DNA from: Chitinophaga ginsengisegetis | GTDB taxonomy: Bacteria; Bacteroidota; Bacteroidia; Chitinophagales; Chitinophagaceae | Length of the DNA stretch: 64,000 nucleotides | Direction of reading: 5' to 3' | Assembly: GCF_900168065.1 (NCBI RefSeq) | Contig: NZ_FUZZ01000001.1 | Span: 1 to 64,000 of the forward strand | Shown here: positions 40,302 to 51,465 of the stretch, piece after piece | Numbering within the stretch: the first letter of the stretch is position 1 | Layout of the letters: every line of letters begins with the position of its first letter | Program-made: the position numbers and the translations under genes | The notes under the pieces: model-generated | Told to the model about the DNA's origin: nothing | Database searches by the model: none | The model's input: the letters and a program-made list of their open reading frames with translations, nothing else

Positions 40302-43163
40302 ATGAGAAGCATTCTAATCAAAGCCTTCATTGGCTGTCTGGTGCTTTTATTATCCCTAACCCAGATAATTTCGGCCCAAAACCCTGTCTCCATTAATGGT
40401 ACTGTACGCGAAAAAGGTTCCGGCAACGTCATGCCTGGTGTAACCGTAGCAGTTAAAGGCTCCAATACCGGTACGATCACCGGCAGCGGAGGCGCTTTCA
40501 CGCTCAGAACCACACATGCGTTCCCGTTAACACTGGTATTTTCCTACGTAGGCTTTAAAACGGAGGAACAGCAAATTTCTTCCGCTACTGATAAAGTGGC
40601 GATAGAACTCAGCTCCACCGAAATCCTCGGCCAGGAAGTAGTAGTTGCTGCCAGCCGTACACAGGAAAGCATCCTGCAATCACCGGTGTCTATCGAAAAG
40701 CTGGACACCCGCGCCCTGAAAGCCTCTCCCGCACCTTCTTATTACGATGCGCTGGCTAACCTCAAAGGCGTTGAAATGAGCACCCAGAGCTTAACATTTA
40801 AATCAGTGAACACCCGCGGCTTTAACAGCAATGGTAACACCCGCGTGCTGCAACTGAACGACGGAATGGACAACCAGGCGCCTGGCCTCAATTTCGCGGT
40901 GGGCAACATGGTGGGTATTCCTGAAGTGGACCTCGACAACATGGAACTCATTCCCGGCGCGGCTTCCGCACTGTATGGCCCCAATGCCCTCAACGGCATC
41001 CTGCTGATGAACAGCAAAAACCCTTTCCAGTACCAGGGATTAAGCGCCCTCGTAAAAACCGGCTTTCTGAACGATGCCGGCCGCTCCACCGCCACTACCG
41101 GCTATTACGATGTGTCTGTACGTTACGCACATGCCTTTAGTGATAAGGTGGCCTTTAAGCTGAACGTAGGCTATTTACAGGCGAAGGACTGGCAGGCATA
41201 TGACCACCGGGATCAGAGCCTGGCAAACGGTCATACCCTCGAAAACGGTACCCGCGCCAATAATGAAGGCTATAACGGGGTGAATGTGTATGGAGATGAG
41301 AATACGGTAAATATGTACACCGGCCTGAAACCTTCCCTGATGCCACAAATGATTGCATTATCACAGCAACTGGGAGGCGCCCTTACACCGGATCAATTAT
41401 ATAACGCTATCCTGCCTCCGCAGAATATGTCGAACGTAACCCGCACCGGTTACAATGAAGCGGACGTAGTAGATTATACCACCAAAAACCTGAAACTCAA
41501 CGCAGCATTGCATTACCGGCTAACCACCAATCTCGAAGCCATTTTGCAGGGCAGCTATGGTTCCGGTACCACCGTGTACACGGGAGCTGACCGCTATTCC
41601 CTGAAAAACTTCAACATGGGTCAGTATAAAGTGGAATTGAAGAGCCCTGACTTCTATGTAAGATTATATACTACGCAGGAAAGGGCGGGCGACAGCTACG
41701 CCGGTGGTACGCTGGCTTCCGGTATCAATGAAGCCTGGAAAACCAGCCAGCAATGGTATACTGAATACTTCGGTACTTACGGCCTTGCCGCAGGCAATCT
41801 TTTTAAAACAACTTTTACCAATAACCTCGGACAAGGAATTCCTGCCGCATTTGCTGCCGCCCAGGCCGCCGTTCAGTCGCAACAGGCCAATTTCATCGGC
41901 GCTGCCAGAACCAACGCCGACAAGGGCCGCCTGATTCCCGGCACACCGGAGTTTGATGCTGCCGCAGATAAGGTGAAGAACAAACCCATCCCCGGCGACG
42001 CTTCCGGCGTTGGCGCTAAGTTTACCGATAAAACCAACCTGTATCAGGCAGAGTTCATGTACAACTTTCATAACCTGATTCACTTTGCAGAAATACTGGT
42101 AGGCGGTAACTACCGCCGCTATGCGCTGAACTCCGAAAAAACACTGTTTGCAGTGGACGACAACGGCAAGGAATTCCGCATCAATGAATATGGCGGCTAT
42201 GTACAGATCATGAAAAAGCTGATAGACGATCACGTAAAACTGACCGGCTCCCTGCGTTATGACAAGAACATGAACTTCAAAGGCCAGTTCAGTCCGCGTT
42301 TGTCGGCAGTATATACTTTCCTCGGTACGCACAATATCCGCGCTTCCTATCAAACAGGTTTCCGCATCCCGCACAACCAGGATCAGTATATCGATCTCGT
42401 AACGCCGCAGGCACACCTCATCGGCGGATTACCTTTCCTCCGCGAACGTTATGGATTGGATAAAGGACCGGTGTTCTCCCTCCAGTCAGTACAGGCGGGC
42501 GCTCCTAAACAGTATGTTTTCCGTGAGTTCCTCCCGGAAAGGATCCAGGCATATGAAATAGGTTATAAAGCAGTGATCGCAAAACAATTGCTGGTGGATG
42601 CTTATATCTATAAAAATGATTTCAAAAATATGAATGGTACACAGGTGCTGGTACAACCAACCAACGATCCTGCCGTAAACAATATCTTCTCTGTGCCGGT
42701 AAGCGCCACAGAAGTAGTACATTCCTGGGGATGGGCATTGGGACTGGATTACAGCCTGCCGCTTAATTTCACCGCCGGTGGTAACATCTCTTATAATGAA
42801 CTCACCAATGAAAAGGACCTGGGTTCGTTCATGACCATGTACAACACACCAAAGGTGCGCTACAGCCTGAATTTCGGTAACCGCAACATTGCCAATTCCA
42901 ATTTTGCTTTTAATATATTATGGAAATGGCAGGAGTCCTTCATATGGCAATCGTCTTTTGTAGGACCTAATTTAAATGCTGCAGGTCTTAGTGAAATTCC
43001 TGCCTATGGCACACTGGATGCGATGGTGAGCAAGTTTTTCCCGAAGGCTAAAACCACGGTAAAACTGGGCGCCGCCAATATCCTGAACAAGAAATATGTG
43101 CAGTCGTGGGGTAATCCTACTGTTGGCATGCAAGGCTATATTTCTATCGGTTATAATTTATAA
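40302..43163 (+). CDS. TonB-dependent outer-membrane receptor
   Basis: 953 residues. Signal peptide (LLLSLTQIISAQ), then a CarboxypepD_reg-like domain (VSINGTVREKGSGNVMPGVT), plug (LDTRALKASPAPSYYDALAN, GAASALYGPNALNGILL) and barrel domain ending YISIGYNL. It imports an unknown ligand with TonB energy. No SusD partner is adjacent, so it is not a classical SusC glycan importer. Upstream of the start I see no clear promoter elements. A terminator shared with the retron operon follows. Confidence 0.9.
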   Translation: MRSILIKAFIGCLVLLLSLTQIISAQNPVSINGTVREKGSGNVMPGVTVAVKGSNTGTITGSGGAFTLRTTHAFPLTLVFSYVGFKTEEQQISSATDKVAIELSSTEILGQEVVVAASRTQESILQSPVSIEKLDTRALKASPAPSYYDALANLKGVEMSTQSLTFKSVNTRGFNSNGNTRVLQLNDGMDNQAPGLNFAVGNMVGIPEVDLDNMELIPGAASALYGPNALNGILLMNSKNPFQYQGLSALVKTGFLNDAGRSTATTGYYDVSVRYAHAFSDKVAFKLNVGYLQAKDWQAYDHRDQSLANGHTLENGTRANNEGYNGVNVYGDENTVNMYTGLKPSLMPQMIALSQQLGGALTPDQLYNAILPPQNMSNVTRTGYNEADVVDYTTKNLKLNAALHYRLTTNLEAILQGSYGSGTTVYTGADRYSLKNFNMGQYKVELKSPDFYVRLYTTQERAGDSYAGGTLASGINEAWKTSQQWYTEYFGTYGLAAGNLFKTTFTNNLGQGIPAAFAAAQAAVQSQQANFIGAARTNADKGRLIPGTPEFDAAADKVKNKPIPGDASGVGAKFTDKTNLYQAEFMYNFHNLIHFAEILVGGNYRRYALNSEKTLFAVDDNGKEFRINEYGGYVQIMKKLIDDHVKLTGSLRYDKNMNFKGQFSPRLSAVYTFLGTHNIRASYQTGFRIPHNQDQYIDLVTPQAHLIGGLPFLRERYGLDKGPVFSLQSVQAGAPKQYVFREFLPERIQAYEIGYKAVIAKQLLVDAYIYKNDFKNMNGTQVLVQPTNDPAVNNIFSVPVSATEVVHSWGWALGLDYSLPLNFTAGGNISYNELTNEKDLGSFMTMYNTPKVRYSLNFGNRNIANSNFAFNILWKWQESFIWQSSFVGPNLNAAGLSEIPAYGTLDAMVSKFFPKAKTTVKLGAANILNKKYVQSWGNPTVGMQGYISIGYNL

Positions 43164-43245: not shown

Positions 43246-44763
43246 CTATACTACATCCCACCAGGGTTTGTCTGATGAGGCGGTTGGATTGTTGAGCGGT
43301 GTGATATTTACCAATGGCGTAATTTTTTTCGAGGTGCTTTCTCCGGTCCACAAACCACGGGCTTCTGCTTTAATATCTTCCCTTTGTAACAATGTGCCCA
43401 GCGTGGCTTTCAGCTTTGCGCCCAGCTCGGGTTTCACCATGTATACAAAGTTGGCGTAGCCTTCCATACTGCTGATAATATTTTTTCCTTTGCCCCAGCT
43501 TTTGTTAGCTAAACCTGTTTTTTCAACCTGGTGCAGCAGGGCACGGAATTTACGCAGGGTAGTACGGTCCAGGCTCAGCTTTTCATTTACCACGATGCCT
43601 GTTACTTCGTGCTTATCTCCTTTACGCATCACCTTTAATTTATCCGGGTGGATGGTAAAGCCTTCTTCCTTTACAAACATTTTCACCGCGCGCAGTAACT
43701 GCCCAGCTTTATCTGCAGCGGGTCCTTTGGCGGAAAAAGTCATATCGTCTGCATATCTCGTATAGGCGTACCCGTATTTTGCCGCCAAACCTGCAAAACG
43801 CCTGTCCAGCTTATAACAGATCAGGTTTGTAATAGCGGGGCTGGTAGGGGCTCCCTGCGGGAGATGCCTGGCTGTTTTAGCCACATAATATTTGCGGCCA
43901 TCGAGCAATACTTCATCTACTTCGGGTTCTGTACAAATAAGCGCCAGTATGGTAGCTACCTGTTCAGCGTATCCGAGTTTACAGAATAATCCTTTTACAC
44001 GTTTGTATGCGATGGATGGGAAGAAGTCGCGCAGATCGATGTTGATCACGATATCCTGACCGGTATGTGGCGCCGCGTTGGTAACAATGGATCTACCCGG
44101 TACGAAGCCGTGGGCAGATTCATCATTTTTTATTTTATAGAGAATATTTTCCAGGATCCAGTGTTGTGCGGCTTTCAGCTGTGGCATGGGCGCAGAAATG
44201 GTGCGGGCGCCGCCGGATTTTTTGGGGATCTGAAAACGTTGGTAGTGGGTATGGTGCCCCACTTTACGATTAAAAGATAAATACCTCAGTTTGCCGATGG
44301 TGATTCCCATTGCGGTGGCTAATGCAGTAGCGTCGGCCCATACAGGCAGTCCGAACTTTTGCAGTTGCGCTACATCCGGCGTCACTTTATTTAAGCCGGC
44401 AGATACCTCTTCACCGAGATATACAATCTGTTGCTCTTTGGTAATGGCCCATGCTGCAGCTCTTTCTTTCCGGGCAGCTTCGCGGCGTTGTTTTGTTTCT
44501 TCTCTTTTCAGTTTGGCTTTTGCCATGCGGGCTTTGCGCATGTCTTCCAGCATTGCCCGTTTGTTGCGGTATTTCTGCCGCTCGCTGAGAAGATCGTTCA
44601 GTTGCCGGCGCACCTCCTTTTCCTTCTGGATGAGCGTAGCCGCCGGTGAAGGCTGCGCAACGTTTTCGGCCCAGAAACCCAGGCGTGTCATTTCCTGTAA
44701 TATATATTCCTCTTTAGAGGATGCACGTATCTTATCGTACAGTTGTTGACGGGTTAAGGACAT
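43246..44763 (-). CDS. Retron reverse transcriptase
   Basis: 505 residues. Catalytic motif YADD with Asp339-Asp340, first metal Asp243 in NIDLRDFFPSI, and LPQGAPTSP at 301-309. It has both retron-specific motifs: NAxxH (NAAPH, 229-233, region X) and VTG (387-389, region Y), which separate retron RTs from group II introns and DGRs. Residues about 45-105 form a basic, Arg/Lys-rich coiled coil (KYRNKRAMLEDMRKARMAKA) ahead of the RT core, longer than in most retron RTs. The role is to prime from a G in the msr RNA and copy the msd to make branched msDNA. It follows the ncRNA by 138 bases and is last in a minus-strand operon with SWIM and WGR genes. Confidence 0.95.
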   Translation of the reverse strand: MSLTRQQLYDKIRASSKEEYILQEMTRLGFWAENVAQPSPAATLIQKEKEVRRQLNDLLSERQKYRNKRAMLEDMRKARMAKAKLKREETKQRREAARKERAAAWAITKEQQIVYLGEEVSAGLNKVTPDVAQLQKFGLPVWADATALATAMGITIGKLRYLSFNRKVGHHTHYQRFQIPKKSGGARTISAPMPQLKAAQHWILENILYKIKNDESAHGFVPGRSIVTNAAPHTGQDIVINIDLRDFFPSIAYKRVKGLFCKLGYAEQVATILALICTEPEVDEVLLDGRKYYVAKTARHLPQGAPTSPAITNLICYKLDRRFAGLAAKYGYAYTRYADDMTFSAKGPAADKAGQLLRAVKMFVKEEGFTIHPDKLKVMRKGDKHEVTGIVVNEKLSLDRTTLRKFRALLHQVEKTGLANKSWGKGKNIISSMEGYANFVYMVKPELGAKLKATLGTLLQREDIKAEARGLWTGESTSKKITPLVNITPLNNPTASSDKPWWDVV

Positions 44764-44901
44764 GATAAATATGTTTGTATTTATTCAGTTTCATGACTTT
44801 GATAACGGAGTATATCCGTAATAAATATCCGGGTGTATAAAATAAAAGGAGGTGGAAAATGGCCGGCGGTGCAGCCCTGCTGAGAGGGGAAAACAAAATT
44901 C

Positions 44902-45132
44902 TGTAAAGAGGAAAAGGCCTTCGTGCAAACCATTGACTAAATCAATCAACTCCAGGGAGGGGCCTACTGTACGCATATTTCAGCCCCCGGGGCTTCTACT
45001 GGAAATATGCGTACAGTAGGCCCCTCCCAAAGTAAAGATTGCATTTAGTGAAGCATGTATAGTCAGAATACCTGAATGACGAAACATCATTCGTCCCTTT
45101 TCGGGCGCAAGTGCAATCAATTCCTCTTTACA
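44902..45132 (-). ncRNA. Retron msr-msd non-coding RNA
   Basis: Read on the minus strand, 5' to 3'. The a1 segment TGTAAAGAGGAA (45132-45121) is perfectly complementary to a2 TTCCTCTTTACA (44913-44902), 12 bp. Within it the msr has GATTGCA/TGCAATC (45118-45112 with 45043-45037, 7 bp) around two small hairpins: CCC-GAAAA-GGG (45105-45095) and GAATGA-TGTTTCG-TCATTC (45092-45074). The msd is a perfect 27-bp stem (45028-45002 with 44981-44955) whose loop has a further AGCCCC/GGGGCT hairpin (44982-44994). This is the arrangement of retron RNAs: a1/a2 stem, small msr hairpins and a long msd hairpin. The branching G is not assigned. Confidence 0.9.
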
Positions 45133-45160
45133 AAGATCTTTGTTATTAACGAGTCAGCAA
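45131..45160 (-). promoter_or_regulatory. Possible internal promoter of the retron RNA
   Basis: Minus-strand TTG (45160-45158), a 19-base spacer, then GATCTTTG (45138-45131), one mismatch to TAnnTTTG. The predicted start near 45125 falls inside a1, shortening it to about five or six pairs, which is a problem for the assignment. The 12-base palindrome CAAAGATCTTTG lies at 45131-45142. The RNA may instead come from the operon transcript. Confidence 0.3.
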
Positions 45161-45199
45161 GGTAGAAAATAATTTCCGGAAATAAAACACCTCCTTAAA

Positions 45200-46852
45200 T
45201 TATTTTACCGCTTTATTTTCCGAATGCGCTATACGCAGTGCCAGCATGTGTTCGCACGGCCCCTTGTATAGTTTATTCGTACTATAAAAATTACAATCGC
45301 AGTGCGCATTACTCAATCTTTCATCCGCATCAATGGTAATAACGGGATGGTATATACGTTGCGCACCTTTTATAGTTCCTTTCAATTGCAAACCTACTCC
45401 CGGGATGTCGGTAGCCGTTAGCTCCACTTTTCCGGCCTGCACCAGTTTCGTGGCTTCCCCCTCCTGTGGATTGGCAAAGCGCAGCTGGTCCAGCGGCAAT
45501 GGTTCACGGCTCAGCTCACGAAGACGGTAAAAGCCCGTGTGCAGATCGTAAATTACTTTGCCTGCCTGGGTATAAATTCCCAGTGCGCCCAATACCGTAG
45601 CCCTGTCCAGACCAGTGGCGGCCACAATTGTTTCCGGTTTGGCCATCCACCTGGTTTTCAGGTCTTCATAAACGGTGAGCTTTGCCAGATCATTCACATC
45701 AGCTCTCGGCGCCATGAGGTCGAACTGCCCGGCGCGCGACCAGTCGTTGGCGGTCCATCCGCTGAGCCCCAGTGTAAACTGCATATCGCCGAGGTCCGCC
45801 ACATAAAAGGATGGCAACCCGTTGCCGGTAAGATGCACCGTGAATTTCTTTGCAATTGGAATCAGCCTTTCCAGGATCAGCAACCGTCTTCTCCCCCATA
45901 TCCTGATTTCCCTGCTTTGCGGGCCGGTGTATAACGATCTCGCACATACGATTTCCTGGTTCCACGGTTCAAACACGGCACGTACCGGCTTGCCTGGTTC
46001 CAGTATAAAACGGATGGAACGGGGACCGCGTTTTTCTTTGAACCGCCGCAGCCAGGAACAGAAATTATATACATCCATCGGGTGCAGGTCAAACGTTGCC
46101 GCGGGCAGCGTCATCGCAGAGCTTACCTGCAGAAATCCCCTCACCCAGCTATCGGGTAAGTCGATCTTTACTTCATGATACAGTTCTTCCTGCGAGGTTT
46201 GCACCTGGAAGCCTCCCGGATCAATCTTAAAATCTGTTTCCTTATAATCACGGATCTTCTGGAACTCGTTATATAAAGAAGCGGAATAATCAATGTTGGT
46301 AGTACCGCATTCAAATTCGTTCACTTCTTTAAAAACATTATAACTGGCACTCAGCTTTCCGTAGGTAGATTCATCCTGGCTGAAACATTCAAAGAACAGT
46401 TCATCCGGATGCACGCTGATTACCGGGTCCAGCACAAACCATGTGTCGCGGTCTTTCTGGTATAAATAATCGAAATAATGTTTGCGGGCTTTATAAAACG
46501 GAGCCATCACTTTATCCTGCTCCTGGTAAATACTGTTGAGCTCTCCCCTCAGGGCCTCTATCCGCTGATCAGCGGCCTGCATGTCATAGCCGTTCATGAA
46601 TTCCGCCAGCCACACCGTTTCCTGCTGGGCGGCCCATTCCTTATAGGCTGTTTTATCTTTCGGTTTAAAGCGCAGATCAGACACCACTACATCGTGCAGG
46701 GCGGAAATGGCTTCCCGGAAGGCTATTTTTTTATGCAGCTTGCCCACAAAAAAAGTGGGATCACGACGGGTATCCGGTGCAAAGGAAATGCCCGCAGCAG
46801 TGGCATTGCTGTACACGTTGGAGTTTCCGCTGTATCTGTAGTTGAATAACAT
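45200..46852 (-). CDS. Winged-helix SWIM zinc-finger protein, retron accessory
   Basis: 550 residues, no signal peptide. The C-terminus has the SWIM motif CxC-x12-CxH: Cys518, Cys520, Cys533 and His535. SWIM fingers bind nucleic acids or proteins. Before it (about 398-450) is a region with winged-helix character (KPETIVAATGLDRATVLGAL, then a wing-like IYTQAGKVIYDL). The first half has a coiled-coil stretch (AADQRIEALRGELNSIYQEQ) and no family I know. It ends 68 bases before the retron RNA and starts 14 bases after the WGR gene stop, so both are one operon. I recall WH-SWIM proteins as a partner of one retron type; the function is not known to me. Confidence 0.85.
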   Translation of the reverse strand: MLFNYRYSGNSNVYSNATAAGISFAPDTRRDPTFFVGKLHKKIAFREAISALHDVVVSDLRFKPKDKTAYKEWAAQQETVWLAEFMNGYDMQAADQRIEALRGELNSIYQEQDKVMAPFYKARKHYFDYLYQKDRDTWFVLDPVISVHPDELFFECFSQDESTYGKLSASYNVFKEVNEFECGTTNIDYSASLYNEFQKIRDYKETDFKIDPGGFQVQTSQEELYHEVKIDLPDSWVRGFLQVSSAMTLPAATFDLHPMDVYNFCSWLRRFKEKRGPRSIRFILEPGKPVRAVFEPWNQEIVCARSLYTGPQSREIRIWGRRRLLILERLIPIAKKFTVHLTGNGLPSFYVADLGDMQFTLGLSGWTANDWSRAGQFDLMAPRADVNDLAKLTVYEDLKTRWMAKPETIVAATGLDRATVLGALGIYTQAGKVIYDLHTGFYRLRELSREPLPLDQLRFANPQEGEATKLVQAGKVELTATDIPGVGLQLKGTIKGAQRIYHPVITIDADERLSNAHCDCNFYSTNKLYKGPCEHMLALRIAHSENKAVK

Positions 46853-46866
46853 AAATGGATTACTTT

Positions 46867-49800
46867 TTAGGATACTCTAATCGCTGTTGGCACTATTTCA
46901 ATAGGCAGCTCCACGGCATACCGTTCCTGTATACTGCGCATGATGGCGATACAGCGGGCTTTGTCGCCAATGGCTACTGTAGCAGATATATGCGCAATAA
47001 TATGACCGATGTAAGTGGCTGCCTCTGTGGATTTCATAGCTTCCTTCTCCAGGAATGCAAAGATCCGTTCCTTTGCAGCGCGGGCCTTATTTACCCGGCT
47101 CAGTACCACCCGGAAATAATGTTCCAGCTCCTGCAAAAACACCAGGTTGCCGGCGGCATATTGCTGCAGGTAGTTGGTGGCAAATAACTGCATGCTTTCA
47201 CTTGGATGCTGGCTAAGTTTCAACAGGTAAGTTTGCCCGTCCTGTTCGCGGAAGAAGCGCAGCAGCAGTTCCCTGCCAAATGCCTGTATATCTGGGCGTA
47301 CACTGTCCGCCACTGCCACCAGTGTTTCCGGCGACCAGTCGTTATCTGTAAACTGCGTCCGGAAAAACTCCATGGCCTCCTGCCGGGTGTCGTCCCATTT
47401 TGCATCGAGCATACCGATGGCGGCATCCCTTTCAAAACGGATACGCGCCGCGTTGTTGTAATAGAAATGCCAGCTCCACTCCCTTACTTTCAGCAACTCG
47501 TGGTTACCGGCGGCAATCACCTGTTTCAGGGATAAAGCCGATGCCGGGATATATTTATCCAGCACCAGCAATCCGAACTGCTGTGCCGACCTGTAGTTGG
47601 CGTACAGCAGGCGTAAAGCAGTAGCCGTGTCGATGTCCTGTAAATAGTCTACCAGCTCATTGCTGAGGGTGGCTTCAATATCCGCATGCATGCCCTCGGC
47701 AGTTTCCTTACGCATGAGCAACGGCACCAGTTCATTTACCAGGTAAACAGCGAGGCGTTTATCCTGCTGCACCAACCGGCTGATGAGGGGACGCACCGCG
47801 TTTCGTACATCTGTGTACGTACTTAATAATATATGGAGTACCAGTTCCGGTCTTCTCAACAATTCATCCGTGCCGATTGCTTCCAGCACTTTCACACCAG
47901 CGGTTCTTACCGGCTGGAACTCGTTGCTGATGAGGCGCTTCAGCATAGCGTCAGATACTTCGCTGAAGTTAAACTGTCCCTGTTTCAGGAGCAGCAACCT
48001 CGCAGCGAAAGCCTGACCGGCTGGCACGGGGCTTTGCAGCAATGCTTCTATATCCGGCATACCCGTTTCCGTTAGTGCCTCGCGGCAATATTGTTCCAGG
48101 ATATCGCAGCCGTCGTTGAGGTTTTCATTACCCGCTGGTGTGGATGTTTTCAGCGCCAGCAGTGCAGTAATTGCTTTTGCGCTGAGAACCCGCATCTTAT
48201 CCAGTGGCAAGTGCACCGGTTTGAGTTGTTTACGGACATAATTACGCACCTCTTTATATGGTGAGAATACCAGCTGCATGAGGAAGTCCATGTCTGCAAA
48301 GCAAACGGCTTCATTGTCGTTGATCCACTGCAAACCCTGCAGGCGGGCCAGATCCAGTGGGCTCATCACCAGTATATATAATAACCGCAACGACGGATTG
48401 GCGGGATCATATCTTTCTTTGGCCAGTTCCAGACCAAACATAGATGGAATGGAGAATGCGTTGGCGAGGAGTCCGGCAATCACGCCTTCATCCATTTTAT
48501 CTTTCAGGGCATTGTAATCCGGGTGGGCTTTCAGTTGCTCCATCGCAAAGATGTGGATCACTTCCATGCGGGCAGATACCAGCAGCTGAATAAAAGCCTG
48601 TGGTAACTTTTGCCATAGCGGCAGAAAAGGTACATCGCTCACCGGTTTTGCAGGTGAAGATGCCTGTGTGGCTTTATATTCGGGCGGTACGGCGGATGCG
48701 GTGAGGTTCTTCTCCCCACCCAGCCAGCCGAAGAGTTTTTTCAGCAGGCCGCCTTTGTCCTTCGCAGCGTCGGGGTTGGCACCGAGTACCGGTTTCGTTT
48801 GTCCCTGTGCGTTAGGTGCTCCTTCGTCTTTGAAAACCCATTCCTTACGATCAGGCGTTAGTTGCAGGTTGGCGGCGTTTCCGCGAAGGATATAGTTGAG
48901 GTATACCAACTTCGAGTTAGCCGGGAACTGGCGGTAGAAGCTCACGTAGCGGCCATTCACCCAGGTATGTTCCCGGGTCTGGTATTCTTTGGCTGCATCC
49001 CTGCTTTCTTCATATTGCAGCAACAGGGCCGTGGCGAGGCGAACGTAATGGTCGTCGTTTTGTTCCCCGAACTGGCGCAGGTTACGGAATACACGGTAGT
49101 GAAGGTAATTACGGGTTCTGTCTGAAAATGCTACCCTGCTGGTGGGCTTTTTCAGTTCCTTATCTGCCTGTACAGATTCTTCCAGTTCGTGTATGTAAGT
49201 GGCAGGAACAAACGGTTTATCGTTATAATCTATTCTTGTACCCGGATTCTTAAACATGGCGTTTTCCCTTTCAAAACGGGCGGCCAGGATGGCAACGATT
49301 CCCTGATCGCCTCGTAGTTCCGCCTGTTTGAAGATATGACGGATATGCTGGAACCAGGATGGCCTCAAAGGCAGGTGCATAAGGAGATTGCCAATGGCAA
49401 TCCTTACTGCGGGCTGTTCAAAGGCTACGATGTATAAGTCTTCCAGCAAAGGATAACTTTGCTCCTGTTGTGTGATCACCCGTTGCTGCAGCAGTGCCAG
49501 CAGTTCTTCTGTATTTCCTTTGGCAACCGCCTGCTGGAAAACTTCGGGTAGCCGTTGGAGGTAGGAACGCACATGTTCTGCGCGTTCTTCCGCCGGCAGT
49601 ACCAGTAACAGGCCGTTGGCGGCCAGCATCCGGATGTTCAGCGGGCGGGAGCTGTTATCGGCATAAGAGCGGAGCACCGGTGCTGCGGCGGGATCGGCCG
49701 ACTTGCCCAGCGCCCAAAGGGCTGCATAGCGTTGCAGTCCGTCGCCTTTTTCCACGAGCTTGATCAGGTAGGGCACTGCTTCCTTTATCTTTTCTTCACC

Positions 49801-50193
49801 GGCCCGCCATATTACGCGGGAGGTTCTCCAGGCAGTTTTAAAGCTGCTTTTCCCTTCTACCGCATCCTGTAATCTTTTCAGGATGGCACGGTGCTTCACA
49901 TTTTCCACGAGGGTAGTGTCTACCGGTGTAAACGACAGATCCTGAACGGCTTCCTGTTCTCCCAGATAACCTTTACTTCTTTTTTCTTTTTCAAGACCAT
50001 CGAATATAGTGGTGGCGGCAGATAGTGTTACGGGGCTTACTGTTTTGGTGCCGTCTTTCAGCGTACCAAAGCGTTTACCATATCTGAAGTTAACAATATA
50101 CTGTTCCGGGCCAACTTCACAAAGATCGATTTCATAGGTCTTATCCGAGTTTCCTTCCCGGAAAAAAAGTTTTACGTTCCTGACAATACGCAT
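46867..50193 (-). CDS. WGR-domain HEAT/ARM-repeat protein, retron accessory (MolR-like)
   Basis: 1108 residues. The first 75 residues are a WGR domain (KTYEIDLCEVGPEQYIVNFR then YGKRFGTLKDG), a nucleic-acid-associated fold also found in PARPs and E. coli MolR; the motif reads YGK instead of WGR. The rest is a long all-helical solenoid with HEAT/ARM-like repeats (LQRYAALWALGKSADPAAAP near 150, several later copies such as RNAVRPLISRLVQ). Around 500-520 is a Ser/Pro-rich linker. No enzyme motif is visible. It is the first gene of the minus-strand operon. In E. coli the yeh locus has a MolR-like WGR protein and a SWIM protein near each other, without an RT. The presumed role is as effector or scaffold of the retron. 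Confidence 0.85.
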   Translation of the reverse strand: MRIVRNVKLFFREGNSDKTYEIDLCEVGPEQYIVNFRYGKRFGTLKDGTKTVSPVTLSAATTIFDGLEKEKRSKGYLGEQEAVQDLSFTPVDTTLVENVKHRAILKRLQDAVEGKSSFKTAWRTSRVIWRAGEEKIKEAVPYLIKLVEKGDGLQRYAALWALGKSADPAAAPVLRSYADNSSRPLNIRMLAANGLLLVLPAEERAEHVRSYLQRLPEVFQQAVAKGNTEELLALLQQRVITQQEQSYPLLEDLYIVAFEQPAVRIAIGNLLMHLPLRPSWFQHIRHIFKQAELRGDQGIVAILAARFERENAMFKNPGTRIDYNDKPFVPATYIHELEESVQADKELKKPTSRVAFSDRTRNYLHYRVFRNLRQFGEQNDDHYVRLATALLLQYEESRDAAKEYQTREHTWVNGRYVSFYRQFPANSKLVYLNYILRGNAANLQLTPDRKEWVFKDEGAPNAQGQTKPVLGANPDAAKDKGGLLKKLFGWLGGEKNLTASAVPPEYKATQASSPAKPVSDVPFLPLWQKLPQAFIQLLVSARMEVIHIFAMEQLKAHPDYNALKDKMDEGVIAGLLANAFSIPSMFGLELAKERYDPANPSLRLLYILVMSPLDLARLQGLQWINDNEAVCFADMDFLMQLVFSPYKEVRNYVRKQLKPVHLPLDKMRVLSAKAITALLALKTSTPAGNENLNDGCDILEQYCREALTETGMPDIEALLQSPVPAGQAFAARLLLLKQGQFNFSEVSDAMLKRLISNEFQPVRTAGVKVLEAIGTDELLRRPELVLHILLSTYTDVRNAVRPLISRLVQQDKRLAVYLVNELVPLLMRKETAEGMHADIEATLSNELVDYLQDIDTATALRLLYANYRSAQQFGLLVLDKYIPASALSLKQVIAAGNHELLKVREWSWHFYYNNAARIRFERDAAIGMLDAKWDDTRQEAMEFFRTQFTDNDWSPETLVAVADSVRPDIQAFGRELLLRFFREQDGQTYLLKLSQHPSESMQLFATNYLQQYAAGNLVFLQELEHYFRVVLSRVNKARAAKERIFAFLEKEAMKSTEAATYIGHIIAHISATVAIGDKARCIAIMRSIQERYAVELPIEIVPTAIRVS

Positions 50194-50361: not shown

Positions 50362-51465
50362 TTAAACGTTGAAACGGAAGTGCATTACATCTCCGTCGGC
50401 AACGATGTATTCTTTACCTTCAATACGCAGGCGGCCGTTATCACGGGCAGCAGCTTCAGATCCGTATTTCACGTAATCTTCGTAGGCAATTACTTCGGCT
50501 TTAATAAAGCCTTTTTCAAAATCGGTGTGGATTACGCTGGCGGCCTGTGGTGCTTTCCAGCCTTTGTGGATCGTCCAGGCACGTACTTCCTGCACGCCGG
50601 CAGTGAAGTAAGTGATCAGTTCCAGCAGGTTATAGGCAGAACGGATTAAGCGGTTCAATCCAGGTTCAGTGAGACCATATTCTCCCAGGAACAATTCTTT
50701 ATCGGCCGGATCTTCCATTTCGGAGATCTGTGCTTCGATGGTGTTGTTCATGATAATTACCTGTGCATTTTCTGCTTTTACAGATTCCTGGAGGGCCTGT
50801 GAAAATTTGTTACCGGTATGAAGGGAGGCTTCATCTACGTTGGCAACGTACAGTACCGGCTTTTCGGTGAGCAGGAACAGGTCGGCAATGGCTACCCGTT
50901 CTTCTTTACTAAGACCGAGCTCGCGGATGTTACGGCCTTTCTCCAGGTGTTCCTGGCATCTTTTCAGTATTTCAAATTCGATCTTTGCTTTTGGATCGCC
51001 ACCGGTTTTAGCCATTTTTTCGGTGCGGGCTACTTTACGCTCCACGCTGTCGAGGTCTTTCAGCTGTAATTCGGTGTCAATGATTTCCTTATCGCTGACA
51101 GGGTTGATGTCGCCTTCTTCGCGAAGAATGTTTTCATCTTCAAAACAGCGGATCACGTGCACGATAGCATCTACCTCACGGATATTGGCCAGGAACTTGT
51201 TTCCCAGACCTTCTCCTTTGCTGGCGCCTTTTACCAGGCCGGCAATGTCCACAAACTCGATGGTAGTAGGCACCACACGGTCAGGCTTTACCAGCTCTGC
51301 CAGTTTATGCATACGTTCGTCAGGTACGTCCACCTGGCCAACGTTAGGTTCTATAGTACAGAAGCGGTAGTTACTGGCCTGCGCCTTAGCGCTGTTGCTC
51401 ACCGCATTAAATAAAGTCGATTTTCCTACATTCGGCAATCCTACAATTCCAACTTGCAAAGCCAT
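50362..51465 (-). CDS. ychF: Redox-regulated ATPase YchF (OBG-family)
   Basis: 367 residues. G1 motif GLPNVGKSTLFNAV, G3-like DIAGLVKGASKGEG, MNNT in place of the usual G4, and a C-terminal TGS domain (VRAWTIHKGWKAPQAASVIH). YchF hydrolyses ATP in preference to GTP and binds ribosomes; it is a universally conserved housekeeping gene. The ATG at 51465 gives the standard N-terminus MALQVGIVGLPNVG. A -7 box TATCTTTG (51481-51488, minus strand) lies 16 bases upstream. Confidence 0.97.
   Translation of the reverse strand: MALQVGIVGLPNVGKSTLFNAVSNSAKAQASNYRFCTIEPNVGQVDVPDERMHKLAELVKPDRVVPTTIEFVDIAGLVKGASKGEGLGNKFLANIREVDAIVHVIRCFEDENILREEGDINPVSDKEIIDTELQLKDLDSVERKVARTEKMAKTGGDPKAKIEFEILKRCQEHLEKGRNIRELGLSKEERVAIADLFLLTEKPVLYVANVDEASLHTGNKFSQALQESVKAENAQVIIMNNTIEAQISEMEDPADKELFLGEYGLTEPGLNRLIRSAYNLLELITYFTAGVQEVRAWTIHKGWKAPQAASVIHTDFEKGFIKAEVIAYEDYVKYGSEAAARDNGRLRIEGKEYIVADGDVMHFRFNV

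Follow-up and report, generated by a model that had tools for sequence, protein, structure and literature searches.

The retrons Eco8, Ec86 and Ec83 differ in their effectors and in what phages do to them. According to PMC13158370, the effector is an OLD nuclease in Eco8, acts by degradation of NAD+ in Ec86 and is linked to cleavage of single-stranded DNA in Ec83, while the stem-loop of the multicopy single-stranded DNA (msDNA) is acted on by the phage through SSB (Eco8), a Dcm-like methyltransferase (Ec86) or degradation (Ec83). Here we describe a type XIII retron of Chitinophaga ginsengisegetis (GCF_900168065.1) in which one partner protein is predicted to fold like a PCNA sliding clamp and the msd stem changes fast within the genus but stays paired. 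The stretch analysed, referred to as the window, comprises positions 1-64,000 of contig NZ_FUZZ01000001.1, and all positions are given in forward-strand coordinates.

The locus lies entirely on the minus strand and is transcribed in the order WGR/HEAT, SWIM, RNA, reverse transcriptase (RT). It comprises the WGR_XIII gene for a WGR domain and HEAT/ARM solenoid protein (46867-50193, 1108 aa; PADLOC and predicted model), the SWIM_XIII gene (45200-46852, 550 aa; PADLOC), an msr-msd noncoding RNA of 231 nt (44902-45132; folding, covariance model and repeat/hairpin search) and the RT gene (43246-44763, 505 aa; RVT_1 at 2e-26). The PADLOC models gave RT_XIII at 8e-192, SWIM_XIII at 1.2e-242 and, for the WGR/HEAT protein, WGR_XIII at E=0 along with HEAT-ARM_XIII at 4.2e-27, and the matches of the RT and both partners span nearly the full model length. 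As all three proteins match type XIII models, and RT_XIII scores 636 bits or about twice the 330 bits of the next-ranked RT model (RT_other), profile ranking assigns the locus to type XIII. The retron feature is real, far beyond chance.

A first-pass annotation, made on the letters of the window, had called a complete retron of RT, msr-msd RNA and two co-directional genes and had pointed to a type XIII class with winged-helix SWIM and ARM-repeat partners. Both calls agree with the PADLOC models, and the former also with the RNA fold and the covariance model. The RNA does lie directly 5' of the RT, between SWIM and RT, and the coordinates confirm the 14 bases between the SWIM and WGR genes as well as the 1108 residues of the WGR/HEAT protein. 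Calling the accessory genes unusual was an overstatement, as RT, SWIM and WGR/HEAT are the standard composition for type XIII. The three RT motifs that it named, YADD (residues 337-340), NAxxH (229-233) and VTG (387-389), show no variation across the 26 aligned RT sequences, the window's own among them. The RT further has an N-terminal extension of about 140 aa, and in NCBIfam it matches retron RT families, each below the curated cut-off; the nearest is retron_St85_RT with 227.6 against 235 bits.

The same annotation described the SWIM gene product as a SWIM zinc-finger winged-helix protein. Both parts are found, but the description is incomplete, because the N-terminal two thirds of the protein are mostly a predicted clamp. 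The zinc finger (residues 506-539; 45236-45337, minus strand, from Pfam and alignment) has a CxC...CxH pattern at residues 518, 520, 533 and 535 that is invariant in 64 aligned sequences. Pfam SWIM was matched by 60 of these 64 relatives (E up to 10), and the window match scores 17.6 bits, short of the curated threshold of 19.6. The predicted winged helix (residues 388-445; 45518-45691, minus) was placed from the secondary structure of the model, and a few of the 64 relatives gave weak matches to winged-helix families of Pfam. Residues 34-368 (45749-46753, minus) are predicted by structure modelling (mean predicted local distance difference test, pLDDT, 79.6; predicted TM-score, pTM, 0.76) and fold comparison to fold like a PCNA clamp, the two-domain clamp fold being found on the predicted SWIM model alone. 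Into this domain a helical hairpin appears to be inserted (residues 68-138; 46439-46651, minus), modelled with low confidence and absent from the homologue in locus L104, discussed below.

Folding of the 436-nt stretch that separates SWIM from RT gave -158.9 kcal/mol (z = -10.3), a value that none of 100 shuffles equalled. On the minus strand, the a1 arm (45121-45132) is 12 nt long and 100% complementary to the 12-nt a2 arm (44902-44913). In 32 aligned related RNAs an invariant CTTGC box follows a1 (45107-45111 in the window) and an invariant CGAAG precedes a2; G 45108 of the box is the probable branching guanosine. The msd hairpin (44955-45028, minus) consists of a perfect 27-bp stem (arms 45002-45028 and 44955-44981, 100%) and a 20-nt loop. 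For 33 of the 41 consensus pairs in the 32-RNA alignment, at least one sequence has both partners substituted with pairing preserved. Searching 95 sources with a covariance model built from this alignment gave 78 matches (E to 0.01), a count that includes the sequences in the model; the window RNA, itself part of the model, matches at 44905-45125 with 174 bits. The RNA is single-copy in the window's own genome, in which no Rfam family exceeded its threshold. In another genome that already has a full copy, a second, partial match of 40 bits was seen (G248:C11:1158634-1158768).

To compare relatives we used the best 80 of at least 577 confirmed RT matches, fetched with their surroundings from Bacteroidota, cyanobacteria, proteobacteria, myxobacteria and others. 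The covariance model matches in 55 of these 80 loci, the sequences that went into the model among them, and in 48 the match covers the whole model and reaches 34.8 bits or more. Seven loci that match weakly or in part (L071, L075, L080, L083, L086, L097 and L103) are not counted among the 48. By tblastn (E to 1e-4) SWIM was found in 65 and WGR in 47 of the 80 loci; among the 67 with more than 2.5 kb covered upstream of the RT, 62 have SWIM. The order WGR-SWIM-RNA-RT is seen in 40 of the 80 loci, five of which have two or three RNAs. Five loci (L033, L039, L072, L078 and L087) show RNA-RT-WGR-SWIM, as does L105, and L059 has SWIM-RNA-RNA-RT-WGR. The distances of RT, SWIM and WGR correlate at 0.83 to 0.91 over 47 complete sets, and none of 2000 permutations reached as high. 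Within these sets SWIM is the best conserved with a median pairwise identity of 56%, followed by the RT with 48% and WGR with 31%.

The first-pass annotation had staked its reading on SWIM and WGR/HEAT being conserved RT neighbours in relatives, as was found. Among 195 family genomes RT_XIII (E to 1e-100) is present in 12 and WGR_XIII (to 1e-5) in the same 12; SWIM_XIII (to 1e-10) is in these 12 and in one more, G013, which has a distant SWIM protein without RT_XIII. Some loci differ in their surroundings. In L034 (8101-9657) an RT relative (56% identity) with no SWIM match in the locus adjoins a fusion protein of WGR and beta-propeller. In three cyanobacterial loci (L041 8285-9945, L061 8255-9945 and L066 8921-9622) an RNase III-like gene is located upstream of the RT, identified by Pfam in L041 and read from similar sequence in L061 and L066, and an NYN-like gene lies between RNA and RT in L041 (Pfam) and L061 (read from sequence).

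The msd stem is the part of the RNA that changes most within the genus. From 39 sources, 25 were kept as near-exact flanks were demanded, giving 18 distinct rows. The hypervariable stem core (5' side 45006-45020, minus, with partner 44963-44977) has a mean pairwise difference of 0.386 and 0.389 on its two arms, compared with 0.147 for the loop, 0.065 for the msr, 0.042 for the stem base and 0.034 for the 3' part. The core thus diverges about six times as much as the msr and about eleven times as much as the 3' part. Watson-Crick pairing is nevertheless kept in 206 of 216 stem cells (12 positions in each of the 18 rows).

Further, seven of the 48 loci with a full RNA carry multiple copies, three in L030 and L037 and two in L031, L032, L045, L056 and L059. 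The copies in L045 and L031 are nearly identical except for the stem, which differs yet stays complementary, and those in L030, L032, L037, L056 and L059 differ in the stem plus other parts. All seven are metagenome assemblies, and the arrays are best taken as putative; in a search of 395 phylum genomes, scoring six candidates per genome among the matches listed, none of the seven genomes with an RNA match had two copies. We also counted short motifs in the stem arms. CTA/TAG occurs in 49 of 59 msd stem arms against 20.6 expected from shuffles, which is a weak lead. Palindromes of 4 bp were found in 57 of 61 arms against 48.1 expected (2 of 500 shuffles as high), of 6 bp in 25 against 18.3 (20 of 500) and of 8 bp in 6 against 4.8 (164 of 500). 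We do not rely on any of these motif counts, in which related sequences are counted repeatedly and, for the palindromes, one arm (L009) was wrongly delimited. A fast-changing yet paired stem is consistent with a bait for phage. The divergence may also be drift, since according to PMC13158370 defence can persist when the sequence of the msDNA varies.

SWIM proteins of this kind also occur in pairs for which no RT is known. The protein of G013 (locus L104) is a full-length homologue of the type XIII profile (hhalign 99.7 over 431 columns) without the 68-138 insertion, and is directly followed by a 1013-aa DUF6493/DUF7824/DUF7825 protein. The same order of SWIM then DUF6493 was seen on a Diaphorobacter and an Asticcacaulis plasmid, and the frames of SWIM and the large DUF6493 protein overlap in L104 and both plasmids (pairs at L153 7752-14085, L154 7893-12181 and L104 5898-10311, two on plasmids). 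The window RT gave no tblastn match on the whole L104 contig, and the annotation of the two plasmid stretches, based on an incomplete gene table, lists no RT. The DUF6493 partner of L104 does not align with WGR_XIII. An integrase and a VapC-type toxin-antitoxin system are found in the vicinity of one of the plasmid pairs. By homology the RT-less SWIM proteins would have the clamp as well. As related pairs occur without a known RT, we suggest that SWIM and its large partner form an effector module of their own, for which RT and msDNA would be the regulatory module.

The model of the WGR/HEAT protein (pLDDT 87.9, pTM 0.67) shows an N-terminal WGR domain followed by a long HEAT/ARM solenoid. The window's WGR match of 17.3 bits is below the Pfam cut-off of 22; among 45 relatives Pfam detects HEAT_2 in 39 and WGR in 38. 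The fold matches are generic solenoids with large root-mean-square deviations. WGR domains of PARP-type proteins bind DNA. The WGR_XIII model is not specific to retrons, because it also matches one of 14 control genomes, that of Methanosarcina acetivorans.

Outside the retron, the set is flanked by a ychF GTPase gene (50362-51465, minus) and a TonB-dependent-receptor-like gene (40302-43163, plus; labelled from reading the sequence), and it lies between these two in the window, L024, L025 and L150. The RNA is present in 35 of 60 genus genomes, with 25 giving no match. In six of seven fetched genus genomes lacking the RNA, ychF and the TonB-type gene are adjacent, their aligned ends 97-127 bases apart; the seventh (G177; L145 5114-7951) has a 945-aa open frame at the site. 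Four genus loci (L026, L027, L028 and L035) have the retron set without these flanks in the fetched stretches. The presence of the RNA in 35 of 60 genomes, the empty sites and the four loci without those flanks show that the element is patchy and located at more than one site.

Taking these results together we put forward a mechanism, to which we give a little less than an even chance. The RT would use the adjacent RNA as template for a hairpin msDNA, and this likely holds the clamp-SWIM and WGR/HEAT proteins inactive until phage infection. The long msDNA duplex with its free hairpin end could dock on or thread the clamp protein and thereby restrain the pair. The pair would be released once the variable stem is bound, methylated, unwound or cut by a phage factor, and it is this stem that would face the arms race. 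Once freed, clamp and WGR/HEAT might bind DNA, most likely replicating DNA, and stop replication, resulting in abortive infection. Further, we speculate, with somewhat more reserve, that type XIII retrons as a whole are clamp retrons. Their central partner would be a bacterial sliding clamp of the PCNA type that the msDNA hairpin keeps off DNA, and the stem of the hairpin would serve as a bait that changes fast and is in some loci multiplexed, wiring one clamp effector to several msDNA sensors of different sequence.

Several observations weigh against this reading. In the SWIM model residues 1-27 and 213-231 have a pLDDT mostly below 50 and the insertion at 68-138 is poor, and the Foldseek superpositions of the model are loose, with target TM-scores from 0.20 to 0.74. 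PCNA is not among the 25 listed of the 51 Pfam families matched by the 64 SWIM relatives, and a profile search against solved structures (E up to 1) gave seven chains of which none is PCNA; in both searches filters hide weak matches. With no PCNA match in these profile searches, the clamp prediction comes from a single modelled structure. Among the fetched loci, five have room upstream of the RT and no SWIM (L034, L060, L066, L095 and L097). In seven distant SWIM-RT loci (L090, L093, L094, L096, L098, L099 and L102) the two genes are 0-10 bases apart and the RNA model finds no match.

The roles of the two proteins might also be divided differently. The clamp-SWIM protein could act as a sensor by imitating sliding clamps or replication factors or by sampling them, leaving the harmful step to WGR/HEAT; we regard this as unlikely, though worth keeping in mind. 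Phage clamps share the fold, and phage DnaN is among the clamp hits. The partner is moreover swapped more freely than SWIM, from WGR/HEAT in the near loci to a 2128-aa WD40-HEAT protein in L102 and DUF6493 in the RT-less pairs, as expected for a constant sensor with different effectors. On the other hand, SWIM is better conserved than the RT, which seems unlike a sensor in an arms race, and neither fold comparison nor Pfam searches of the 45 relatives recognised an enzyme domain with confidence in the WGR/HEAT protein. That protein could still hide an enzyme new to the libraries, for example at residues 310-455, or could itself be an enzyme resembling HEAT-repeat DNA-repair proteins, in which case SWIM would only tie it to the msDNA. 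Strands outside the helical repeats are modelled at these residues, a second fold comparison covers mainly residues 573-1103, and one of the 45 relatives weakly matches the HEAT-like family of DNA alkylation repair enzymes (0.0057). Yet the 10 Pfam families that these relatives match include no nuclease, NADase or protease, and invariant polar residues are few and scattered (R126, K289, D296, R904 and D963), and we find such an enzyme improbable. We give still less credence to a role in genome maintenance or regulation instead of defence, with a clamp-like DNA-binding pair tuned by msDNA. The neighbours do look like housekeeping genes (ychF GTPase, a nucleoside-transporter-like protein, an alpha/beta hydrolase and the TonB-type gene), but the patchy presence in the genus and the joined flanks in six of seven RNA-less genomes argue against it, as does the anti-phage activity of retrons tested elsewhere (PMC13158370).

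Should the clamp prediction be true, it would mean a new kind of retron partner, be it effector or sensor, which works by holding DNA and neither cuts it nor depletes NAD. A bacterial defence element would then contain a clamp fold known chiefly from eukaryotes and archaea. If the more speculative clamp-retron reading is right, clamp-SWIM and its large partner would represent a means of killing or stalling cells that needs no enzyme and had gone unrecognised, with and without a retron. The variable paired stem and the tandem RNAs raise the testable question of whether the stem sequence decides which phage is sensed. We expect the clamp prediction, the behaviour of the stem and the RNA arrays to surprise specialists; titles and abstract starts of the open-licence literature, weak evidence as they are, yielded nothing on how type XIII works, on a retron partner resembling a clamp or on naturally occurring msr-msd tandems.

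Compared with PCNA clamps, the SWIM protein has 5 to 12% identity in the rows listed and adds the helical-hairpin insertion (68-138) and the fused winged helix and SWIM finger; the likeness lies in the predicted fold. With the E. coli yehI-L-M-P-Q genes (DUF4132, MoxR, VWA, SWIM) the locus shares the SWIM finger of YehQ. Membership in such a MoxR-VWA-SWIM system was considered and rejected, as YehQ aligns in the finger only (hhalign probability 3.4) and YehI does not align (0.1), in comparisons of single E. coli sequences with profiles. The composition is the same as in known type XIII retrons, and relatives likewise keep an RNA upstream of their RT; the predicted PCNA-like fold, the variable stem and the tandem RNAs are described here. 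Finally, as in Eco8, Ec86 and Ec83 (PMC13158370), there is an RT, a noncoding RNA with inverted repeats and a hairpin msDNA (predicted here), and restraint of the partner through the stem-loop would be expected in the present retron too. The effector domains of those three systems were not recognised in it, and the place they occupy appears to be taken by a clamp-like protein.

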